A stretch of DNA of 64,000 bases from Pirellulimonas nuda (lineage in GTDB: Bacteria; Planctomycetota; Planctomycetia; Pirellulales; Lacipirellulaceae): the NCBI RefSeq assembly GCF_007750855.1, contig NZ_CP036291.1, positions 2,356,001-2,420,000 of the forward strand. The letters run 5' to 3'. Within the stretch, counting starts at the first letter, position 1, and each line of letters starts with the position of its first letter. Of this stretch, positions 47,036 to 57,770 are shown piece after piece. Position numbers and translations under genes: made by a program. A model generated the notes under the pieces. The model searched no databases, was not told the DNA's origin, and saw nothing but the letters and a program-made list of their open reading frames with translations.

Positions 47036-48094
47036 TTGCGAAGCGCACAACGAAAAAGCGATTGTGTCGGTCGAGTCGGTGGTGCGCTGCTTGACAAGCG
47101 ACGTGCGGCAAGCACGGTTTCGGGCGCCGGCGGCTCGGTCTGTGCAGGGTGGCGGTTGCGTTTGGCATTGGTTGGTGCGCTAAGCGTTGCCGCGGCTGCG
47201 GCGCCGGGCGCCGCGGTTGCGGACGACCGACGAGAGAGGCTCGCGCAGCCGATTTCTGCCGTTTGGCGAGAAGCGCCGGGGCGCACGATGTTCGCGCGGC
47301 TGTCGACCACCGCGGGGGTTCCGGTGATGCTCGACCGCCGGATCGACCCCACGTCTCCCAGGACCCTGGAGGCCCGGGGCCAGTCGGTCCGCGAGGTCAT
47401 CGACCGAGCGGCCCAAGCCGTGGGCGGATCGCCCTACTTCTTTCCGGGACTGATCTACATCGTGCCAGCCGAAAAGGTCGGCGAGTTGGAGAGCTTGGCC
47501 GCGCGTGATCAGGCGGCGATCGCCAGACGCGACTCGACGCTCGACGCGCCGATCACGCTTTCTTGGCCGGCACTGTCCTCGCCGAGCGAGCTGGTAACGC
47601 GGGCGCTGGAGGGCAGCGGGTGGCGGGTCGCGAACCCGGGCGCCATCCCGTTTGATCTGTGGCCGCCGATGGACGGAGGACGTCTTTCAAGACGCGAGTG
47701 GCTCACCGTCCTGCTGTTCGGCTTCGGCCTCACCTTCGAAGAGTCTGGCGCCGGCGTGCTGACGGTCGCCGAGATCCCTCCGCAGGCCAAGCAGGGGGTC
47801 GCGGCGCCGCGGCCCGCCGCGCGGGGGAGGGCCCCCGCCCGTGTATCTATCGAGGAGCAACGCGTGACCTTTGTCGTGCGCGGCGAGCAGGCGGGGCGAG
47901 TGCTTCAAAGCCTGGCGTCGAGCTTTGACCTCACGCTGAAGGTGTCGCCGGAAGCAGAAGCTCGGCTGAAGACGCCCGTTACGATCGAGGCGCGCCAGCG
48001 AACGCTGGACGCCGTGCTGGCGTTGCTCGGAGAGGCCGCCGGGCTACGCCTGACGCGCGCCGCGCGGCAGGTCGCCGTTGACGCGCAGCCGTGA
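47036..48094 (+). CDS. Exported protein with secretin/TonB short-domain-like repeats
   Basis: 352 residues from a TTG at 47036; the start is uncertain and may be a TTG just before the hydrophobic core (LRLALVGALSVAAAAAPGAA). Two copies of a beta-alpha pattern typical of STN domains in secretins and TonB receptors are seen: MFARLSTTAGVPVMLDRRI with LEARGQSVREVIDRAAQA, and VLQSLASSFDLTLKVSPEA with TIEARQRTLDAVLALLGE. It is probably periplasmic. It overlaps the convergent subtilase gene at the 3' end by 51 bp. Role unknown. Confidence 0.62.
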   Translation: MRSAQRKSDCVGRVGGALLDKRRAASTVSGAGGSVCAGWRLRLALVGALSVAAAAAPGAAVADDRRERLAQPISAVWREAPGRTMFARLSTTAGVPVMLDRRIDPTSPRTLEARGQSVREVIDRAAQAVGGSPYFFPGLIYIVPAEKVGELESLAARDQAAIARRDSTLDAPITLSWPALSSPSELVTRALEGSGWRVANPGAIPFDLWPPMDGGRLSRREWLTVLLFGFGLTFEESGAGVLTVAEIPPQAKQGVAAPRPAARGRAPARVSIEEQRVTFVVRGEQAGRVLQSLASSFDLTLKVSPEAEARLKTPVTIEARQRTLDAVLALLGEAAGLRLTRAARQVAVDAQP

Positions 48095-49624
48095 GCGGGA
48101 GGCGCGCAGCCGTGAGCGGGAGCGGCGTGCCGCGGCTAGCACCAGCAGCAGGCCTGCGATGGTCACGGCGGACGGTTCGGGGACGGACGAGGGGCCTAGC
48201 GCGGCGGCGCCCTGCATCGCGGCGCGCCAGACCGCTAGGTCGGATCCGTCGATCCGCCTGTCTCGGTTCGCGTCTGCGTTGAGCTGGGTCGTCGAGCCGA
48301 GGGTGTCGCGCCACACGGTGTAGTCGGCGGCGTTGATCGCCCCGTCACCGTTAAAATCGCCCGGCAGCGCAGCGACGGCGCTGCCGGCAAACGCGTTCTT
48401 CCACACCTGGTAGTCTTGCTGAGAATACTTGGTTCCGAGCCCGTCGCGCCAAGTGGTGTAGTCTGCCGCGTCGACCGAGCCGTCGCGGTTGAAGTCGCCG
48501 GGGACGGCTTCGTATGCGGCTGCGGAGAACGCGCTGCGCCAGACGTCGAGGTCGCCCTGGGTATACCGCACGCCGAGCCCGTCGCGCCAAGCCGTGTAGT
48601 CCGCGGCGTCGACGAACCCGTCGTGGTTCAGGTCGCCCGCAATGGGCGCAGCAACGGACTGGATCGCGGCTTCGAGATTGATGTGCTGATAGGTCTTCTG
48701 GGTGGCCGGGTCGAAGAAGGGGTCGGCCGTCGATCGCAAGGTGTCGTAGATGTGGGCGGGCGTCACCGACAACGGGTCCGAGCCCCCCATCGCTTCGCGG
48801 ATCAGCATGCTGGCGCCCGCGACGTAGGGGGCGGCCATGCTGGTGCCCGACTTGTAAGCCCAATCGTCGTCAAGGCCGTTGCCGTTGCCCATGTAGTCCG
48901 GCGCCGGCCCCAAGATGTGGGCGCCCGGCGCGGCGATCGCTTGCTGGCTCCGTTGGCTGTAGTTGGCCAGCCCGCTTGTCTGCCACGCCATGGCCGCGGT
49001 GACCGAGGGGCTGGACGACGGGTAGTTCAGGCCGGCGACGCCAAACGAGGCGAACTCGTTTCCCGCCGAGGCCGCTACAAAGACGCCCGCCTTACGCAGG
49101 TCGGCCAGCTCGTCCTCAAGCATGCCCCATTGCGGTGGGGAATTTGCGTTCCAGGAGGACCCGATCGATAGGTTCACCGTCGTGATCGGGTTTCGATAGG
49201 TATGCAGGTTGTCTCGCACCCATCGCAGCGCCTTCTCTACCCAACTGAAGTAGACGGCGCCCTGGTCGTCGAATACCCGCAGACTCACGATATCGGCGCC
49301 CGGCGCAACGCCCGGGTTGGTTAAAGAGCCGCTGGCGGCGACCCCCGTTACGTGCGTTCCGTGTGATCCGCGGTCGCCCAGGCCCACGCTCTTTTCGTCG
49401 TACGGGTCGGCGTCGTTCTCGGCGAAGTCCCAGCCGCCAACGTACCTGCCCGCGAACGCGGGGTGGTTGTACGCCAGGCCGCTGTCGATCACTACCAGCG
49501 TCTGACCGGCGCCGCTTAGGCCTAGAGGAGCGCCGGTGGAGTGCGCGCCGTGGCTAGCGCACACCGCGACGCCCAGGATCAAGCAAAGGTGCGTTGAACA
49601 GGTTTCTCTACGACCGTAGGGCAT
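48044..49624 (-). CDS. Subtilisin-like serine protease with three dockerin-like repeats and PEP-CTERM tail
   Basis: 526 residues from ATG 49624, which begins a signal peptide (CLILGVAVCASHGAHS). The S8 catalytic triad is visible: Asp in TLVVIDSGLAYNHPAF, His in GDRGSHGTHVTGVAASGS and Ser in KSGTSMAAPYVAGAS, with the oxyanion Asn in AASAGNEFASF. Residues about 345-480 hold three dockerin-like repeats (GDLNHDGFVDAADYTAWRD, GDFNRDGSVDAADYTTWRD, GDFNGDGAINAADYTVWRD). The tail SSVPEPSAVTIAGLLLVLA plus basic residues is PEP-CTERM. It is an exported, anchored protease. The last residues come from a 21-bp tandem duplication shared with the convergent gene. Confidence 0.9.
   Translation of the reverse strand: MPYGRRETCSTHLCLILGVAVCASHGAHSTGAPLGLSGAGQTLVVIDSGLAYNHPAFAGRYVGGWDFAENDADPYDEKSVGLGDRGSHGTHVTGVAASGSLTNPGVAPGADIVSLRVFDDQGAVYFSWVEKALRWVRDNLHTYRNPITTVNLSIGSSWNANSPPQWGMLEDELADLRKAGVFVAASAGNEFASFGVAGLNYPSSSPSVTAAMAWQTSGLANYSQRSQQAIAAPGAHILGPAPDYMGNGNGLDDDWAYKSGTSMAAPYVAGASMLIREAMGGSDPLSVTPAHIYDTLRSTADPFFDPATQKTYQHINLEAAIQSVAAPIAGDLNHDGFVDAADYTAWRDGLGVRYTQGDLDVWRSAFSAAAYEAVPGDFNRDGSVDAADYTTWRDGLGTKYSQQDYQVWKNAFAGSAVAALPGDFNGDGAINAADYTVWRDTLGSTTQLNADANRDRRIDGSDLAVWRAAMQGAAALGPSSVPEPSAVTIAGLLLVLAAARRSRSRLRASRSRLRVNGDLPRGARQA
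48082..48123. repeat. Tandem 21-bp duplication at the 3' overlap of two genes
   Basis: Copies at 48082-48102 and 48103-48123 differ only in the last base. The period of 21 preserves both frames: on the minus strand it adds SRSRLRA/V twice to the subtilase tail; on the plus strand the first copy contains the TGA stop of the secretin-like gene. It looks like a recent slippage event. Confidence 0.8.
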
Positions 49625-50113
49625 CGACCTTCCGCCGGATATGTCCGGCAACACAACGGAAGCGGCGCGCCAGTGGCGAGCCGATAGGGACTTGGAAATA
49701 GGCCCGCAGCCTCGCAAGGGGCAGACGCTCCAAGCCTGAGAATGCTGGGCGCTGCGGTTGGCGACTGAGGAGACCAGAACTCTCGCGGAGGATTCTAGGT
49801 GTGTCAATGGCAAACCGGTAGAGAAAAGAAAAAACGCAAGATCGAGCTCCCCTTGCGTACGACTTCCGACCGATCTTGCAGCGGGGAAAGTAGCAACGGA
49901 AAGGTCGCCGATCGTCTGGTCATCCTGGTTAACGCTCACGCGCACTGGGCCCGGCAATCGTCGGCGTAGGTCGAGCAGCGGCGATCCGCTCCGCGCCCCC
50001 TGATCGTCCAACGGCCAGGGGGGTGATGGCGGACGGGGGTTTAGCTGGTAGTATTCTGGCACCAGCGGGCGTCGCCCGCAGTTCGCGAAGCGCTTCTCCC
50101 GGCGAGACACCTG
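49625..50113. other. Divergent intergenic region with an inverted repeat
   Basis: 489 bp between the subtilase start and the STAS gene start. No gene is recognised. A 9-bp inverted repeat (GCAAGATCG at 49836-49844, CGATCTTGC at 49871-49879) flanks a 26-base loop, and a shorter ACGCAAG/CTTGCGT pair lies within it. These could be a regulator site or a stem in an mRNA leader. An A-rich stretch (AGAAAAGAAAAAACG) lies just left of it. Confidence 0.45.
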
Positions 50114-50476
50114 ATGGGCATCGAAACGAACGCCAAGGACGGGATCCTCACGATCCGGATCCGAGACCAACGGATGGTGGACGAAGCGCTGCTTGAGCAG
50201 CTAGAACGCGACGTGACCGCGATGCTCGATAAGTCGACCGAGGAACGCGTGATCCTCGACTTCGAGAGCGTGCAGTTCATGTCCTCGTCGATGCTCGGCA
50301 AGCTTGTCAAGATTCACAAGCAGTGCCAGGGGTTCAAGGTGAAGCTCAAGCTCAGCGGCGTCTCGCCAGAGATCCGCGAGGTCTTCAAGATCACCCGCCT
50401 CGACAAGCTGTTCGACCTCGAGAAAGACGAGGCGGCCGCACGCAAGGCGTTCCTGAAACGCGGCATCTTCGGCTAG
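50114..50476 (+). CDS. STAS-domain anti-sigma factor antagonist-like protein
   Basis: 120 residues, a single STAS domain. The N-terminal beta strands GILTIRIRDQRM and the strand-loop VILDFESVQFMSSSMLGKL are typical; the serine-rich loop SSSML is the usual phosphorylation site (SpoIIAA-like). VKLKLSGVSPEIREVFKI and RLDKLFDLEKDE complete the fold. Such proteins switch an anti-sigma factor or a phosphatase through serine phosphorylation. It converges on the FHA-EAL gene, 64 bp away, and is not obviously in the kinase operon. Its partner kinase could be the kinase-tubulin protein nearby (inference). Confidence 0.88.
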   Translation: MGIETNAKDGILTIRIRDQRMVDEALLEQLERDVTAMLDKSTEERVILDFESVQFMSSSMLGKLVKIHKQCQGFKVKLKLSGVSPEIREVFKITRLDKLFDLEKDEAAARKAFLKRGIFG

Positions 50477-50540
50477 ATGCGCCCCGCCGCATAACGCCGG
50501 GACGAGTCCCGGCGGAACGGGGGCTCGCTAGGGTTTCGGC

Positions 50541-51683
50541 TCACCGTACGCCCGCGAGGGGCGCCGGCTGCCCGCATTGGCTGGGCGCCTGCGACGAGCG
50601 GCTCAACGGCTGCGGCCGGCCGTACAGGAAGCCTTGGGCGCATGAGAACCCGAGTTCAGCGCAGACCTCATGGTCGGCGGTCTGCTCGATCCCCTCCGCC
50701 AAGGGCACGATCCCCAGCTCGCTGGTCATCTGCACGAGCCGCTCGACCATCTTCTGGCGTTCAAGCGACGCCGAGGAGATGCCTTGGACCAGCTTCATGT
50801 CAAACTTGAGGTAGTCCGGCGGAACCTCGACCAGCTCGACCAAGCGGGCCTGTCCGGCGCCGAAGTCGTCGTACGCGAGGCCGATACAGAGCTCGTCGAG
50901 CACCGAACGCAGTTCGCGCATCTGATTCGACTGGGTCGCGGTCGCCTCGTGGATCTCCAGCACCATCGGGCGGTGCGGATCGAGCTCGCGGAGCTCGCGC
51001 AGCGAGAACTCGAGGACCCCCAGGTCCTCGATCTCCGCGGGGTGCGTGTTGAAGAACAAGAGCTGCCCGCCCGGGATCCCCTGCCCCACGCGGACCCCCT
51101 CGTCGCGCAGGATCCGGCTCAGCTCTGCCTCGAGGTTCAGCACCGCGGCGGCCTTGAACATCATCGCGGGGTCGGTAAGCCCGAACAGCTTGCTGCGCCC
51201 GAGGATCTCAAACCCGAACGTCTGCTGCGTACCCATCGCAACAATCGGCTGGAAGTGCGGCGACACCGCACGCTCGGTCATCAGCTTGTCGAACTGGATG
51301 AGCGCCAGCGCGCGATCGGCGGAGTCTTCTTGGATGGTTTTCAGGTTGGGGGTCGAGTCCTCCAGCGTGGCGCGAAATACGATCTGTGCAAACTGCACCA
51401 GGTCGCCCCGGTGCACGGCGCAGTCGTCGGTCACACGCACGCCGTTCACAAAGGTGCCGTTCGTGCTGCCCAGGTCGCGGACCCGCAGGAGGTCGTCCTC
51501 CAGAAGGATCTCTGCGTGACGACCCGACACGGTTGGGCTGGGGATCGACAGCGATTGATCGGCGCGGCGCCCCACGGTGAAGGGGGAGCAGTCGACCGAG
51601 ATCCTGCGCATCGGTTCGTCGTCCGTCAGTTGACCGCTCAGCAGCCAACGCGTCTGACTCGAGGTGGTGAGGCAATCTAGCAT
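50541..51683 (-). CDS. FHA-EAL two-domain signalling protein
   Basis: 380 residues without membrane segments. Residues about 25-105 form a forkhead-associated domain: GRR at 38-40, SGRHAEI at 53-59 and STNGTF at 73-78, the phosphothreonine-binding loops. Residues about 125-355 form an EAL cyclic-di-GMP phosphodiesterase domain. The signature reads E159-I-L; other expected catalytic residues are N212, E243, D272-D273 (YDDFGAG), K297, E330 (LAEGIE) and Q350 (CAQGFLYGRP), so activity is plausible. It lies 46 bp after the kinase-tubulin gene on the same strand, so it would be co-expressed with a kinase able to make its phosphopeptide ligand. Confidence 0.9.
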   Translation of the reverse strand: MLDCLTTSSQTRWLLSGQLTDDEPMRRISVDCSPFTVGRRADQSLSIPSPTVSGRHAEILLEDDLLRVRDLGSTNGTFVNGVRVTDDCAVHRGDLVQFAQIVFRATLEDSTPNLKTIQEDSADRALALIQFDKLMTERAVSPHFQPIVAMGTQQTFGFEILGRSKLFGLTDPAMMFKAAAVLNLEAELSRILRDEGVRVGQGIPGGQLLFFNTHPAEIEDLGVLEFSLRELRELDPHRPMVLEIHEATATQSNQMRELRSVLDELCIGLAYDDFGAGQARLVELVEVPPDYLKFDMKLVQGISSASLERQKMVERLVQMTSELGIVPLAEGIEQTADHEVCAELGFSCAQGFLYGRPQPLSRSSQAPSQCGQPAPLAGVR

Positions 51684-51729
51684 GAGGATCGAGACGGATG
51701 GTGCGGTAGGAGTTTCGTTCTACGAGTCT

Positions 51730-54700
51730 TCAGAAGGCTGGCGCCGGCGTGCTTACGAGCATCGTCGCGTCCACCGGTCGGTCGAAGGCGTCCGCGTCCA
51801 GAGCGCTTTCGGCGGGTGTGCAGGCGGGGGGAGAATCGAGGTCTAGGAGCGGCTCCCAATCGATGTCTCGGCGTGAGTGGACCCGCTCGGCGAATCGCGC
51901 GTAGTCCTGCCGATGGCCGACCACGTGCGCGGCGAGGTGGGGGATCGAGATCCCCTCGCACTCCACAACCGTGACGGAGGCCGAACCCGCCGGCCTGCCC
52001 GCGAAAGTCTCCGCGGTTAGCCGACGTTCGATCCCGCCAAAGCCGGTCGGATCAACGCCCTGCGACAGTTGCTGCGCGTGGGGGCCTTCGATCGCTCCGT
52101 CGCTGACCACGCCTTGCGGCAGCACAAACCGCCGGGCGATCTCCTGGACCGCGGCCTTCAGCCCCGCGTGAAGGCCTGGGTCCGACAGCACCCGGGCGGC
52201 GCCCCCGCTGGGGGCGAAGTACTCGGACTGAAGCCAACCGTCCAGGCTAACCGCCAGCTCGGTCAAGGCCTCGCAGGGGGCTTCCAGCGGGATGGTGGGA
52301 TCACTGCGCAACGCCGAGCTGATGGTTCGGATCCTTGCGTCCATCGACGCCACCGCTGCGCGCACCCGCCGTGCGGCCAACGCCGCCTCTTGGACGATCT
52401 CGGCGTGGTCGGTTGTCATGTTCGTCAGGTCGCGTTCAACGCAAGCCAAGTGGTCCGTCATCCACCGTACGGCCTGGCTCGCGTCGCGGAGCCGTGGTCC
52501 GGGCGCGTCCATTTTCTCTGCGATCCAGCCCCCGATCGCGGCGATGATCGTCTGCACGACCCCCCCGGCGGCGTCGGCGCCGCGGGTTCGCGCCCCGCGG
52601 GTCGTCGCCAGCAGCCCGGTGGCGTCGATCTTGTGCCGGGCGACAAACTGGGCGGCCCCGTGAACCAGCGGGTTGGTGCCCCCCACGTTCACGTCGTGCG
52701 TGTCGTCTTCCCACTCGTCGCCCATCCACAGCTCGAACAGGCGTCGCTGCAGAAGCTCGGCGTCTGCTATCCCGCTTGGCGAGAGGGTCTCCTCCACGCG
52801 GAAGCTGCGGACGCGGTCCGGGTCGCCGGCTGCGTCGCGGAGTCGGTCGAGTTGCTTCTGGGTCGGGGTAAGGGCGTCGAGGAACAGATAGTCAACGATA
52901 GCGGTCCGGGCGCTGACGCCATGCGGGTCCTCTGCGCTGGCGCCGAAATCGAGCAGGTAGCTGGCGTCAAACGGCGGCGACTCTGCCGACGCCGCGGGCA
53001 AGCCGCAGCCGGCTTCTCCGGGGTAGGCCACGTCGGGCCGCGACAGGTGACGCAGCTCCGTCAGGGCGCTGAACGCGTTGACGCGCGCCAGCTCGCCCCG
53101 TTCTTTGTCACGCGTGGTTGAGTAGGTCAGCAGCCCGATGATCTTTGCTTCGGAGATCCCCGCACGCTCCAGGATGGCCCGAGTAGCGTACGCCACGTCC
53201 AACGCCATCCCGCCCCCTGCCCCGCCGCTGATCGATGCGACAACGTAGACCCGGAACGCGCCCGGCCGGAACGTCGTGCCGGAAGCCGCTTCCGATTCCG
53301 CCACCGATTCCGGAGAGGTCGCCTCGATCACGGAGCGACGGACCCGCTGCAACGCTTGGCGCGCGTGGTCGATCAAAGCCAGGCGGCCCAAGGGCCGGAT
53401 GCCCTCGGTGCGCGCCGACCGTGGGATGTTGTAGAGCCAACGCCGGCCAAGCCAGCCGAGCAGTTGTTCAGACTTGGCGCGGTACTGCTGCGGACGCTTG
53501 AGCGGCAGGGAAACCGTTTCTGTGGCAAGCAATCCGGCGCCCTTCTCGGCGCCGTGCGTGGCTTGCGAGAGGGAGGTTTGATCGACGTCCATCAGCAGGA
53601 AGGGCATCGCCGGCAGCGGGCCGTTCAGGCCGAGCTCGGCAGACATCCGCTGGCGCAGCATGCGGAGCACACGCGCGCTGCTGCCGCCGAGCCCTAGGAA
53701 GAGCGTCGGGGTCAGGGCGAAGGGTTCTGAGTCCTCCTGCACCGGCGCCTGCTCGGCCCTGACGGCGTACGGGGTCGGCGGGTCTAGGTTGAACAAGATC
53801 GGCGCCGCCGGCCCGTTCCACGCCGTCTCGTCCAGCGCGTCGAACACCTGGGTGGCGCCGGCCGTCGAGGTGCGGCTGATGATCGCCGCGGCCGCGGTTG
53901 CAGAACGCGCGGCGGCGGGCTGCTCGCAGGCGTTGGGGAGGCCGTCCGCCAGCATCTGCACAAACTCTGCGCAGCTGCTGAACCGGTACTCGGGCCGCTT
54001 GGCCAGGGCACGCGACACGACGAATCGATCCGATTCCGACAGCGACGCCAGGTCGGGCTCTTCGTTCAGGTGTTGGAGCGTCAGCTCGGCCGGCGAGCCG
54101 CCGAGGAACGGCACGGTTCCGGTGAGCAGCTCCTGGTACACGATCGCTAGGCTGTACTGGTCGCTCGAGCCCGTGGGCGAGCCGCGGAACACCTCGGGCG
54201 CCGCGTACGTGGGGGTCATGCCCCCCACGATCGATTCCGAGACCCCGGCGTCCAGGCTCTTTACAAGGCCGAAGTCGGCCACCTTCACGTGCCCGGACAG
54301 CAGCAGGATGTTCTCCGGCTTGATGTCGAGGTGCTGAAGCGAGTGGTGGTCGCGTAGGTAGTCGAGCGCGTCAGCCGCTTCGCGCAGGTAGCGCAGCAGC
54401 TCAACGCGGGGTATGCCCAGGGCCCCCCCGTCGAGGCGTTCGAGCAGCCGATCGCGGAGGCTCCCGTCGGCGAGCTCGGTGACGACGACCATCCGGCCTT
54501 CGACGACCTCGATCCGCTCAAGCGAGAGCAGGAACGGGTGCCGGACCTCGCGGATCCGCTCGAGCGCCTTGAGCTCGCGAACGGCGCGGGCGCCGTCCTG
54601 TCGGCCAAAGATGAACTTGACCGCCTTGGTCAGTCCGCCCGGCGCTTCGGCGCGCCAGACTTCGCCGTAGCCCCCTTGGCCCAGGCGATCGAGCAGCCGG

Positions 54701-54744
54701 TACCCGGGCAGGCTTTCGAGCGGGGGAGATGTGTTGTTGCTCAT
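51730..54744 (-). CDS. Ser/Thr protein kinase fused to a tubulin-like domain
   Basis: 1004 residues. Residues 14-270 are a complete protein kinase: Gly-loop GQGGYGEVW (22-30), ATP lysine K43, catalytic H138-L-D140 in HLDIKPEN, magnesium D157 in DFG, and YAAPEVF. A linker (about 270-340) rich in Ala/Ser follows. From about residue 345 is a tubulin-like (Tubulin_2/FtsZ-like) region: TLFLGLGGSSARVLRML is the first nucleotide-binding loop, and VVASISGGAGGGMALDVAY (about 500-519) is the glycine-rich signature loop. The rest of the protein (to 1004) is helical and Ala/Arg-rich. No membrane segment is present. The ATG at 54744 overlaps the AAA gene's stop by 4 bp. It may couple phosphorylation to a polymer or a GTPase switch. 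Confidence 0.88.
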   Translation of the reverse strand: MSNNTSPPLESLPGYRLLDRLGQGGYGEVWRAEAPGGLTKAVKFIFGRQDGARAVRELKALERIREVRHPFLLSLERIEVVEGRMVVVTELADGSLRDRLLERLDGGALGIPRVELLRYLREAADALDYLRDHHSLQHLDIKPENILLLSGHVKVADFGLVKSLDAGVSESIVGGMTPTYAAPEVFRGSPTGSSDQYSLAIVYQELLTGTVPFLGGSPAELTLQHLNEEPDLASLSESDRFVVSRALAKRPEYRFSSCAEFVQMLADGLPNACEQPAAARSATAAAAIISRTSTAGATQVFDALDETAWNGPAAPILFNLDPPTPYAVRAEQAPVQEDSEPFALTPTLFLGLGGSSARVLRMLRQRMSAELGLNGPLPAMPFLLMDVDQTSLSQATHGAEKGAGLLATETVSLPLKRPQQYRAKSEQLLGWLGRRWLYNIPRSARTEGIRPLGRLALIDHARQALQRVRRSVIEATSPESVAESEAASGTTFRPGAFRVYVVASISGGAGGGMALDVAYATRAILERAGISEAKIIGLLTYSTTRDKERGELARVNAFSALTELRHLSRPDVAYPGEAGCGLPAASAESPPFDASYLLDFGASAEDPHGVSARTAIVDYLFLDALTPTQKQLDRLRDAAGDPDRVRSFRVEETLSPSGIADAELLQRRLFELWMGDEWEDDTHDVNVGGTNPLVHGAAQFVARHKIDATGLLATTRGARTRGADAAGGVVQTIIAAIGGWIAEKMDAPGPRLRDASQAVRWMTDHLACVERDLTNMTTDHAEIVQEAALAARRVRAAVASMDARIRTISSALRSDPTIPLEAPCEALTELAVSLDGWLQSEYFAPSGGAARVLSDPGLHAGLKAAVQEIARRFVLPQGVVSDGAIEGPHAQQLSQGVDPTGFGGIERRLTAETFAGRPAGSASVTVVECEGISIPHLAAHVVGHRQDYARFAERVHSRRDIDWEPLLDLDSPPACTPAESALDADAFDRPVDATMLVSTPAPAF

Positions 54745-56096
54745 GGATCGCTCCCGGGGGTCGCGATCGACGCTGGCGCCGGCATCGTGGTGAAGTAGGC
54801 GCCCACGGCGCGGTCGAGGTAGTCGGGGCGCAGTTCCAGGGCGACGCCCCGGTAAACGCAGTAGTTGCGGACCTGGCTCAGCAGGTCGCGTGCGTGGCAC
54901 CGCCGCAGGCAGCGGCCCAGCGGGCGGTAGTGCTTCTGAACCAAATAGTCGACCGCCTCGGGGCGGTAGCCGAACCCGAGCGTCCGGCAGCCGACCTCAA
55001 AGAGTGTTCGGAACTCGTCGAGCGACGGGTCGCCCACCTCTACCTTGTACGGGATGCGTCGCAGGAAGGCCTCGTCCGTGAGCTCGTGCGGCTCCAGGTT
55101 GGTGGAGAAAATAATCAACTGATCGAACGGCACCTGGATCTTCTTTCCGCTGGGGAGCGTGAGGAAGTCGTACCGGTTCTCCAGCGGGATGATCCAGCGA
55201 TTGAGCAGCTCCGTCGGCTCGATCCGCTGCCGACCGAAGTCGTCGATCAACAAGCACCCGCAGTTGCTCTTGAGTTGGAGCGAGGCCTCGCACACGTTGG
55301 AGATCGGGTCGTGCCGGATCTCGAGGCTGTCCATCGTCAGCTCGCCCCCGACGATCACCGTCGGCCGACGCACGTTGACCCATCGCGGGTCGTGCCCGGT
55401 CCCCGAGAGCAGCGAGCCCTCTTGCTCCTCGGGCCGCTCGTGGTAGGCCGCGTCGAACACCTTGATGATGAAGCCGTCGTCGATCACCGCGTGGGGGAGC
55501 CAGATGTTGCGTCCGAAGCAACGCGTGATGCGCCTAGCGAGCGTCGTCTTGCCGTTGCCCGGCGCCCCGTAGAGGAACATCCCGGCGCCGGAGTTCACGG
55601 CCGGCCCCAGCACCTCCAGCAGCGAAGCGTCGATCGAGATATCCTCGAAGGCCTCCAACAGTTGTTCGCGCTGCGCCGCTTCGGCACGGATAGTTTGCGC
55701 CTCGACCGACAGCACGTACTCGTCCAGCGGCACCGGCGCCGGCCCGACGTAGCTGCAGGCCTGCATCGCCGCGCGGGCGCGATCCAGCCCCTGGTCGGTG
55801 AGCGCGTAGTAGTAGTCCCCCAACGCCGCTTGGCCCTGGTGGAAGACGATCTGCCGGGAACGCAGGCTCCCGAACAGGTCTTCCAGCGTGCCGAACGGCA
55901 GGCAGAGCCGTCGCGCGACGTCACGCCCCGCGGCCGAGCCAACCTGCAGCAGGTACTTACATACCAGCCCCTCGACCAAGACGGGCGAGACGCCCGTTTC
56001 GCGCAGCGTCTTCGGCTCGGTAGGCAGGAAGACATCGTCGCTCAGCAAGGCGCCGAGCCCGTCGATGGCGTCGTAGTCTGATGGGGCTGAGGTCAT
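54741..56096 (-). CDS. AAA+ ATPase with winged-helix-like N-terminus
   Basis: 451 residues. Residues about 30-110 are helical with a winged-helix pattern (VLVEGLVCKYLLQVGS, DVARRLCLPFGTLEDLF). The AAA+ core follows: Walker A GAPGNGKT at 177-184, Walker B CLLIDDF at 281-287, sensor 1 IIFSTN at 328-333 and a possible arginine finger FLRRIPYK at 344-351. The C-terminus (FGYRPEAVDYLVQKHYRPL, RCHARDLLSQVRNYCVYRG) is the helical lid. AAA+ proteins remodel protein complexes or DNA; its substrate here is unknown, but the 4-bp overlap with the kinase-tubulin gene suggests a joint function. Confidence 0.88.
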   Translation of the reverse strand: MTSAPSDYDAIDGLGALLSDDVFLPTEPKTLRETGVSPVLVEGLVCKYLLQVGSAAGRDVARRLCLPFGTLEDLFGSLRSRQIVFHQGQAALGDYYYALTDQGLDRARAAMQACSYVGPAPVPLDEYVLSVEAQTIRAEAAQREQLLEAFEDISIDASLLEVLGPAVNSGAGMFLYGAPGNGKTTLARRITRCFGRNIWLPHAVIDDGFIIKVFDAAYHERPEEQEGSLLSGTGHDPRWVNVRRPTVIVGGELTMDSLEIRHDPISNVCEASLQLKSNCGCLLIDDFGRQRIEPTELLNRWIIPLENRYDFLTLPSGKKIQVPFDQLIIFSTNLEPHELTDEAFLRRIPYKVEVGDPSLDEFRTLFEVGCRTLGFGYRPEAVDYLVQKHYRPLGRCLRRCHARDLLSQVRNYCVYRGVALELRPDYLDRAVGAYFTTMPAPASIATPGSDP

Positions 56097-56210
56097 CGGC
56101 GTAGCGGAGGGCGGGGCAAAGATTCCTGATAGAACCTAGGTCGCTCGCCACGCAACGCGCCGCAGATTCGCGGCGCCCCGCACTGCCTGCCGTCGTAACC
56201 GGCACGATCG

Positions 56211-57770
56211 TTACCTTTGTTCCGCCGTGACGCCCGGCCAATCATCGGTCCGGAACGGCGTAACCGGCAGCCACGCCGAGTTGTAGAGGTTCACGCGAGG
56301 GTTGTCCGCCCAGGCGTAGCGGACCGCCACGGGTTCGCGCACCTCGGCCGACGACAGCCGGACGGTGTTCTTGCCGGTGATCTTGGCGTCGGCCCAATGA
56401 AACTGCTGGTCTGACCCGGCGATGGCGAACCCCTGCGGCGGGACGCCGTCAAAGGTCCGCAGCCCCCCCTCGCAATCGGTTAGCGTAAGCTGCGCGGCGT
56501 CGTCTGCGAACTCGCATTCCTCGAGCCGGGGGCTCCTGGCCGGCATCTTGCTGCCGTACACGTCCGCCAACGCAAGCCTGGCGAGCCGCGAGGCGACGGA
56601 CTGCTTGTTCTTGGGGTGGATGTCGTTTGCCTCGCCCAGGTCGATCGCGAGGGCTTGCCCCACGTTCTCTAGCCGGTCGAGCGTCATGGTCTGCGCCTCG
56701 CGCAGCTCCGCCCAGTCGCTCGGTGCGGGGGCGGGCTTCTCCGGCTTGAAATCCGCTAGCTGCACCCAGTAGAAGGGCAGGTCGGCCTGCCCCCACGCGT
56801 CGCGCCAGGCCCCGATCATCGTCGGAAACAGCTCCCGGTACTGGTAGGCGCGTCCCGCGTTCGACTCTCCCTGGTACCAGATTACTCCGGTGATCGGAAA
56901 GTCGCGGATCGGTTCGACACGGGCCGCAAACAGGTTGCCCGGTCGCTGATTGCCGAAGAGCGGGGCGTTGATCCAGGGCCGGCCCGGGGCCGAGCGTCCT
57001 TCGGCGAGCGCCTTTTCCCGTTGCTCCCGCCACTGCGTCAGCTTTTCTGCATAGTCGCGGCGCAGCGACGCCTCATCACTGTTGGCCTCGATCTCGGACC
57101 AACGCTTCCGGAGCGGGCCGTACATCGCCTCATCCGCGAGGGCCGCGGGCGGGACCCACGCCTCGCAGGCGGAACCCCCCCAAGAGTTGTCGATCAGCCC
57201 GATCGGAACGCCCAACGCCTCTTGGAGTTGGCGCCCAAAGAAGTACCCCACGCCAGAGAACGAGCCCGCCTCCTTCGGAGAGGAGACACGCCACTGGGTG
57301 TCGATCTGCTCGGTCGGATCTTGGGACCCGATGGTGTCGATCCTCATCAGACGCAGCATCGGCTCGTCTGCCGCGGCGATGGCTAGTTCTGCGTCCCTCG
57401 ATTGGTCGAGCCGCCACTGCATGTTCGATTGCCCAGAGCAGACCCAGACATCGCCGATCAGCACGTCCTGGGCGACCACCTCTTCGTCGCCGGAAGCTAC
57501 CTTCAGCGTGTAGGGCCCGCCGGCGGGTCGCGCGGCTAGCTCCGCTTGCCACTTGCCGGATTCGTCGGCTGTGGCGGTCGCCTTCTCGTCGGCAAGCGAG
57601 AGTTCCACCTTGCCTCCCGGCTGACAACGCCCCCAGACCCGGATCGGTTGATCCCGTTGCAGCACCGCGTGGTCGCTGAACAGGTCGGAGAGCCACAGGG
57701 ACGGTTCTGCCGAAGCCACGTTGGCCAAAACCAAGGCGGCGAGGGTTGCCGCGGTCGTGAGAAGTCGCAT
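56211..57770 (-). CDS. Sialate O-acetylesterase-like SGNH hydrolase (SASA domain)
   Basis: 519 residues, ATG at 57770 with TGAGG just before it. A signal peptide ends near NVASA. A beta domain (residues 20-105) is followed by the SASA-type hydrolase: DVWVCSGQSNMQWRLD holds the nucleophile serine, GLIDNSWGGSACEAWVP the oxyanion Gly and Asn region, GVIWYQGESNAG block III and DLGEANDIHPKNKQ the catalytic Asp-x-x-His. A C-terminal beta domain follows. It removes acetyl groups from sialic acid or other sugars outside the cytoplasm. Confidence 0.92.
   Translation of the reverse strand: MRLLTTAATLAALVLANVASAEPSLWLSDLFSDHAVLQRDQPIRVWGRCQPGGKVELSLADEKATATADESGKWQAELAARPAGGPYTLKVASGDEEVVAQDVLIGDVWVCSGQSNMQWRLDQSRDAELAIAAADEPMLRLMRIDTIGSQDPTEQIDTQWRVSSPKEAGSFSGVGYFFGRQLQEALGVPIGLIDNSWGGSACEAWVPPAALADEAMYGPLRKRWSEIEANSDEASLRRDYAEKLTQWREQREKALAEGRSAPGRPWINAPLFGNQRPGNLFAARVEPIRDFPITGVIWYQGESNAGRAYQYRELFPTMIGAWRDAWGQADLPFYWVQLADFKPEKPAPAPSDWAELREAQTMTLDRLENVGQALAIDLGEANDIHPKNKQSVASRLARLALADVYGSKMPARSPRLEECEFADDAAQLTLTDCEGGLRTFDGVPPQGFAIAGSDQQFHWADAKITGKNTVRLSSAEVREPVAVRYAWADNPRVNLYNSAWLPVTPFRTDDWPGVTAEQR

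Follow-up and report, generated by a model that had tools for sequence, protein, structure and literature searches.

A gene encoding a fusion of a Ser/Thr kinase with a tubulin-like GTPase (KT), accompanied by genes for an FHA-EAL protein and an AAA+ ATPase, forms a conserved gene module, found in the Pirellulales and, elsewhere in the class, in one or more families of another order. The representative studied here lies on a 64 000-nucleotide stretch of Pirellulimonas nuda DNA (contig NZ_CP036291.1, positions 2 356 001–2 420 000; 'the window', whose own numbering is used throughout). The likeliest reading of the module is that an EAL-domain protein is linked to a tubulin-family scaffold in a phosphorylation-dependent way; enzyme activity, docking, polymerisation and the role of the AAA+ protein are our inferences. 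The three window genes are:

50541..51683 (-): FHA-EAL gene, 380 amino acids (aa)
51730..54744 (-): kinase-tubulin fusion gene (KT), 1004 aa
54741..56096 (-): AAA+ ATPase gene, 451 aa; such a gene is present at 54/67 KT loci

The KT start codon (ATG) and the AAA+ stop codon overlap by 4 bp and a gap of 46 bp separates KT from the FHA-EAL gene, confirming the coordinates given in a preliminary description of this DNA. That description had also proposed one operon, uninterrupted by a terminator or promoter. A crude consensus scan of 50000–56400 returned no promoter-like site and one terminator-like site, within the kinase reading frame (mean of 3.0 in shuffles), and thus predicts neither kind between the three genes; because it models sigma-70-type promoters only, it is weak evidence for a single transcript.

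Conservation and gene arrangement of the module

KT is present in 27 of 43 genomes of the family (E ≤ 1e-40) and in 94 of 246 genomes of the order (E ≤ 1e-60). We compared 67 loci: the window, 28 of the 29 other KT loci of the family (all but L035, on a 4-kb contig) and 38 loci drawn from 38 of the order's 67 remaining KT-positive genomes, the 66 non-window loci having been chosen before their neighbours were known. An FHA-EAL gene adjoins KT in 63 of the 67. It is missing from L138, L145 and L155, each with a contig end near, and from L160, where neither AAA+, FHA-EAL nor GGDEF-CBS was found in the 20 kb examined. The AAA+ genes comprise 53 long ones and one cut by a contig end; a 92-aa AAA match at L143 was not accepted. 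The window's genome has two KT genes, with partners beside both.

A second collection gave a similar picture. A scan gave 176 relatives, 80 of which were kept; of these, 28 had already been analysed and 52 were new. The kinase end of KT was seen in 49 of the 52, and FHA-EAL lies beside it in 44 of these 49, a set which includes near-copies (e.g. L253–L257) and does not amount to 49 independent events. Among the five without FHA-EAL, four have a contig end 0.4–1.9 kb from KT, and L261 has 3.6 kb and no partner. Among named organisms, Botrimarina colliarenosi, Botrimarina hoheduenensis, Lacipirellula limnantheis and Adhaeretor mobilis have the module, in the same layout as the window. Outside the order, FHA-EAL, AAA+ and KT genes are consecutive on one strand at L173, from another family of the class, and a divergent arrangement occurs at L287, titled uncultured Schlesneria. 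The profile PF13809 matched 11 of 294 genomes across the phylum, an underestimate because many kinase-tubulin proteins found by protein search score low or are missed by the profile. The preliminary description had staked its grouping on conservation in related genomes, and the genes are indeed kept together across the Pirellulales and at L173.

What is not kept is their layout. AAA+, KT and FHA-EAL follow one another on one strand, as in the window, at 18 of the 67 loci; FHA-EAL is divergent from AAA-KT at 13, the order FHA-EAL, AAA, KT occurs once, and FHA-EAL stands with KT alone at two. At a further 29 loci a gene for a GGDEF-CBS protein is divergent from FHA-EAL-KT, with FHA-EAL directly upstream of KT and AAA+ upstream in 20 of the 29. 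AAA-KT spacing ranges from -4 to +61 bp (AAA-KT-FHA-EAL loci and L148). The single operon first proposed is therefore not general, and the operon was rejected as the conserved unit, since gene order and strand vary between lineages.

Domain architecture of the KT protein

KT is a single polypeptide in which a kinase domain is joined through a disordered linker to a tubulin/FtsZ-type GTPase fold (Pfam matches: Pkinase, 1.5e-30; Tubulin_2, 8e-37). Its features are:

53977..54702 (-): Ser/Thr kinase domain, aa 15–256, with HLDxKPxN catalytic loop, non-RD
53842..53853 (-): candidate FHA-docking motif TQVF, aa 298–301, in the kinase-tubulin linker
52759..53703 (-): Tubulin_2 (FtsZl1) GTPase domain, Pfam extent, aa 348–662
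53197..53235 (-): T4 GTP-binding loop SISGGAGGGMALD, aa 504–516
52051..52722 (-): predicted helical insert within the C-terminal tubulin domain, approximately aa 675–898

The kinase signatures are nearly invariant across the 67 loci (Lys 67/67, HLDxKPxN as HxDxKPxN 67/67, DFG 66/67), and on these residues KT is apparently an active Hanks-type Ser/Thr kinase. A profile score of 127.7 bits against a curated cut-off of 27 places the tubulin part of KT in the known FtsZl1/Tubulin_2 family. The T4 loop fits the strict pattern GG[TAS]G[SGA]G in 57 of 67 proteins, its glycine columns being kept in 54–58 of 58; the window's own version reads GGAGGG.

The structure of the tubulin part (aa 343–1004) was predicted with a mean predicted local distance difference test score (pLDDT) of 88.2. 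In a VIA-align comparison the model matched CetZ with a Z score of 24.3 (272 residues, root-mean-square deviation 3.1) and BtubA with 24.1 (301 residues), over model residues 2–626. This suggests a complete tubulin fold in which the C-terminal domain is present, split by a helical insert of ~220 residues whose limits, taken from the secondary structure of the model and the aligned span, are approximate. A profile comparison of the tubulin region with PDB sequences ranked coiled coils and helical bundles nearest, and these we rejected as chance matches to the helical insert. The FtsZ/tubulin profile PF00091 had no match in any of the 19 relatives searched, the window's genome among them, and was positive in 13 of 14 control genomes.

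The FHA-EAL protein and two versions of the module

The FHA-EAL protein matches both of its Pfam domains well (FHA, 4.4e-17; EAL, 2.2e-32):

51390..51578 (-): FHA domain, aa 36–98; nearest solved FHA sequences GarA/Rv1827
50613..51278 (-): EAL domain, aa 136–357; all nine catalytic positions present (E N E E D D K E Q)

The nine positions, which we take to be those of RocR-type enzymes, were scored from an alignment of FHA-EAL proteins. The loci divide into the window's version, with AAA+ and without GGDEF-CBS (32 loci), and a sister version with GGDEF-CBS (29 loci); both occur in the window's genome. All nine residues are complete in 29 of the 32 loci of the window's version (the window and 28 of the 31 others), the remainder showing one D to N change and two truncations. 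The FHA signatures GR, S..H and NG are kept in 32, 32 and 31 of the 32, and in 29, 29 and 29 of the 29 sister loci. In agreement with the preliminary description, kinase, FHA and window-version EAL catalytic residues are intact.

The protein that accompanies the sister version has Pfam matches to GGDEF and CBS in the three scanned, and the GG[DE]EF signature was found in 0 of 29. One example (L039:4193-5593) and its relatives have a receiver-like start and were always paired with a degenerate FHA-EAL protein in the loci examined. In a tree of FHA-EAL proteins, the intact ones, that of L173 and a third FHA-EAL protein of the window's genome (see below) fall on one side of a branch with a Shimodaira-Hasegawa-like approximate likelihood ratio (SH-aLRT) of 100. 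In the KT tree, made by a quick method and with several long branches, the versions are interleaved, requiring seven changes, of which at least five are forced by starred branches; the AAA+ tree needs 2–3. The versions may thus have arisen more than once, or partners may have been swapped.

The AAA+ protein

Pfam returned only below-threshold P-loop matches for the 451-aa protein (best 0.0012) and no family above cut-off. The protein nevertheless has the Walker A motif GAPGNGKT and the Walker B motif LLIDDFGRQ, and GxPGNGK is invariant across 48 aligned AAA+ proteins. A model with a pLDDT of 86.5 predicts an N-terminal helical or winged-helix-like part (~aa 20–115) and a core (~aa 133–437) with, on this modelling, an AAA+ fold. 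The nearest structure is 8p49 (8p49_F, Z 17.1, 252 residues), followed by ComM, Lon, sigma-54 activators, CbbQ, NorQ, RuvB and MCM among many AAA+ proteins, so that no one family is preferred. As to MoxR-like membership, the bpMoxR profile gave 10.9 bits against 27 for the sister protein. Two paralogs occur in the same genome (L125:9680-11233 and L126:8873-10261), and the AAA+ family is found in 162 of 246 genomes of the order against 94 of 246 for KT. Within 20 kb around these paralogs none of the module's other proteins was found, nor any functional lead.

EAL domains in the window's genome and order

In the genome of the window, three domains match EAL and seven match GGDEF, EAL being the phosphodiesterase domain counted here. 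All three EAL proteins carry the FHA motif, and the gene of each either adjoins a Ser/Thr kinase gene or directly follows one; in a genome of 6.6 Mb, two of the three EAL domains stand beside the two KT genes. The third (L171:8055-9170; EAL E value 6e-43) and the end of a kinase gene overlap, the locus spanning L171:4349-9170, so that an FHA-EAL gene beside a kinase recurs without tubulin. The L171 kinase protein has further matches, one to DUF5939 and a weak one to a nucleotide cyclase (0.0055). In the order, EAL was found in 44 of 97 genomes, and comparison of match positions shows that in 18 of the 44 the sole EAL match is the one beside KT. Across 30 EAL loci, the genome's three being re-listed with them, larger multi-domain EAL proteins are without the FHA motif and most small ones are with it, as called by a rough regular expression and with one locus unreadable.

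Neighbouring genes

Downstream of the module, one further gene is convergent with FHA-EAL:

50114..50476 (+): STAS-domain gene, 120 aa

This anti-sigma antagonist-like gene is kept beside FHA-EAL in 8 of the 18 loci of the same layout and is possibly an accessory outside the core module. Beside the module there is also a subtilase gene (48044–50170), whose product has dockerin type I repeats and matches PEP-CTERM weakly.

Relation to earlier work

In the parts of their article available, Makarova and Koonin (2010; PMC2875224) describe an N-terminal kinase domain in four FtsZl1 proteins from planctomycetes. The referee Jekely there points out that in Pirellula staleyi the gene of a diguanylate phosphodiesterase, Psta_0487, is a neighbour of FtsZl1, and the authors answer that such neighbours are confined to one or a few related organisms, setting them aside as not conserved. 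The conserved partners given in those parts for operons of this same tubulin family are vWA, GTPase, OmpA and kinases; the T6-H7 region and known C-terminal domain were not recognised in FtsZl1. Compared with these parts, the GGDEF-CBS version is new, as are the C-terminal tubulin domain and the conserved partnership with AAA+ and FHA-EAL. The novelty claimed in the preliminary description holds for the conserved module, of which no description was found in the open-licence literature, and has to be given up for kinase-FtsZl1 fusions and for one phosphodiesterase neighbour (that of P. staleyi), both reported in 2010. Elsewhere in the class and phylum, kinase-less FtsZl1 genes have neighbours whose sequences begin with vWA-like motifs (DTSGSM, DVSGSM or DRSESM, read by eye) at L172, L174, L177 and L178, with L176 not clear; to judge from these motifs the four loci represent the older FtsZl1 arrangement.

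The kinase-tubulin architecture is also documented in Planctomycetota in the accessible portions of PMC11032199 and PMC9871819, where tubulin-like is the commonest associated domain of solely cytoplasmic kinases; these portions share the domain fusion with KT and contain no analysis of AAA+ or FHA-EAL neighbours that we could find. Kaur et al. (2020; PMC7159879) report tubulin-containing NTPase conflict systems with TRAFAC GTPases, HSP70, vWA and effectors. Like the module, these are multi-gene systems with a tubulin-family protein, but neither FHA-EAL nor a kinase-tubulin fusion was found in the part of that paper covered. Nor is the module described in the available parts of PMC5147048, PMC4672568 and PMC10936438.

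Proposed mechanism and alternative explanations

We postulate that through the module the FHA-EAL protein is recruited, in a phospho-dependent manner, to a tubulin-family scaffold, a proposal that, taken with its mechanism, we consider to have an even chance of being right. In the window's version, the tubulin part would oligomerise in a GTP-dependent manner and thereby gather the kinase domains, which would then phosphorylate threonines of their own linkers (TQVF-like sites in the window). The FHA domain would dock on the phosphorylated linker, and docking would position or switch the phosphodiesterase for cyclic di-GMP (c-di-GMP) at the scaffold, so that c-di-GMP drops at a particular site or moment. 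Taking the assembly apart or resetting it may be the task of the AAA+ protein. In the sister version EAL and GGDEF-CBS, with catalysis lost, may serve as binding or sensing adapters on a like scaffold. The fullest form of the proposal, a cytoskeletal second-messenger switch, in bacteria where FtsZ was not found, in which self-written phosphothreonine docking sites place c-di-GMP hydrolysis in space or time while the sister EAL and GGDEF domains are dead adapters, is a possibility that we advance tentatively.

Known systems offer partial parallels. Mycobacterial PknB/PknG-GarA signalling pairs a Hanks-type kinase with an FHA reader, as does the module; here FHA is joined to an EAL phosphodiesterase and the kinase to a tubulin. 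GarA/Rv1827 has a TSVF-like ligand site of its own. The window's version resembles the EAL phosphodiesterases RocR and PA3825 in retaining the catalytic residues, with FHA as the regulatory domain; the sister version is degenerate. The linker of KT is highly variable among KT proteins, and yet T[QE]x[FLIM] occurs in the linkers of 29 of the 67 against 5.7 in shuffles of each linker (0/1000 as high). With the threonine replaced there is no clear enrichment (S, 12 vs 7.0; N, 3 vs 1.8; A, 7 vs 9.4 shuffled). These threonine motifs are a hint that FHA may bind a KT phosphopeptide.

Several observations weigh against the proposal. First, the sister version keeps only 0–5 of the nine EAL residues per locus and is complete in 0 of 29, which excludes c-di-GMP turnover, put forward in the preliminary description, as a function shared by all copies. 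Second, a T7 acid is required for GTP hydrolysis in FtsZ, and no invariant acid was found in the presumed T7 of KT; the nearest D/E, aa 633, is present in 47 of 58, and the catalytic acid was not placed. Third, a further 47 linkers, the second set, show the motif less strongly (10 vs 3.5 shuffled, 1/1000), and there T[GAP]x[FLIM] (22 vs 9.9) and T[VILM]x[FLIM] (16 vs 7.4) are enriched as well, so that exact T[QE]x[FLIM] is not general; the shuffles ignore relatedness, several rows being near-copies, and of the genome's other kinases, seven of which were compared, one has the motif downstream as well (100 residues examined). Fourth, KT is missing at threshold from 152 of 246 genomes and is therefore not essential in the order. 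Lastly, STAS and the other neighbours yield no lead on function. TQVF as a universal docking motif was rejected, holding in the window's family and poorly in the second set; threonine with a hydrophobic residue at +3 is common in linkers, the exact motif is not.

A rather unlikely but serious alternative is that the kinase-tubulin/FHA adapter complex is the core, with EAL a protein- or nucleotide-binding module and hydrolysis an extra of one version; FHA-EAL would then read c-di-GMP or bridge KT to another partner. The loss of EAL and GGDEF signatures in 29 of 29 sister loci, where the FHA, kinase and tubulin signatures remain, fits this well, as does the position of the intact FHA-EAL proteins on one side of the SH-aLRT 100 branch. 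The nine residues of the window's version, on the other hand, have been kept over long divergence, which requires selection for catalysis or for exact nucleotide binding. We regard with similar doubt the possibility that the module is ordinary FtsZl1 membrane-remodelling machinery (Makarova and Koonin 2010) under planctomycete regulators, its c-di-GMP and kinase parts merely tuning it. Tubulin_2 membership and the kinase-less FtsZl1 genes beside vWA-like genes favour such a role, but vWA, OmpA and the predicted GTPase were all absent among the eight window proteins scanned with Pfam, the partner set being swapped for AAA+, FHA-EAL and GGDEF-CBS.

A conflict or anti-phage system on an NTPase scaffold, by analogy with Kaur et al. 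(2020), would be improbable. Systems with tubulin and GTPase or HSP70 do exist in the covered part of PMC7159879, and the KT kinase matches the mad6 and PD-T4-6 models; these matches, however, span the generic kinase domain only, AAA+ matches IetA over 28 residues, and PADLOC has no model that FHA-EAL or GGDEF-CBS match. Within the window, nothing adjoining the module was recognisable as a toxin-like effector, and the module's spread within a family looks vertical. With PADLOC and NCBIfam matches this generic, defence was set aside as the principal reading. A chance or operon-hitchhiking neighbourhood, which adjacency in one genome and nothing more would favour, is scarcely credible and can be dismissed, since the module is kept in other genomes through at least four arrangements and two of the three EAL domains of the window's genome accompany its two KT genes.

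Implications

FtsZl1 proteins have been recognised since 2010, and no assigned function for them was found in the literature searched. The module gives them conserved partners with recognisable biochemistry, namely a kinase, a phosphopeptide reader, a c-di-GMP phosphodiesterase and an AAA+ motor, which make FtsZl1 function testable on purified proteins. If a phosphorylation-dependent link between scaffold and EAL protein holds, it would be a tubulin-family system of budding bacteria where PF00091 was not found, and a route for eukaryote-like kinases to control c-di-GMP.

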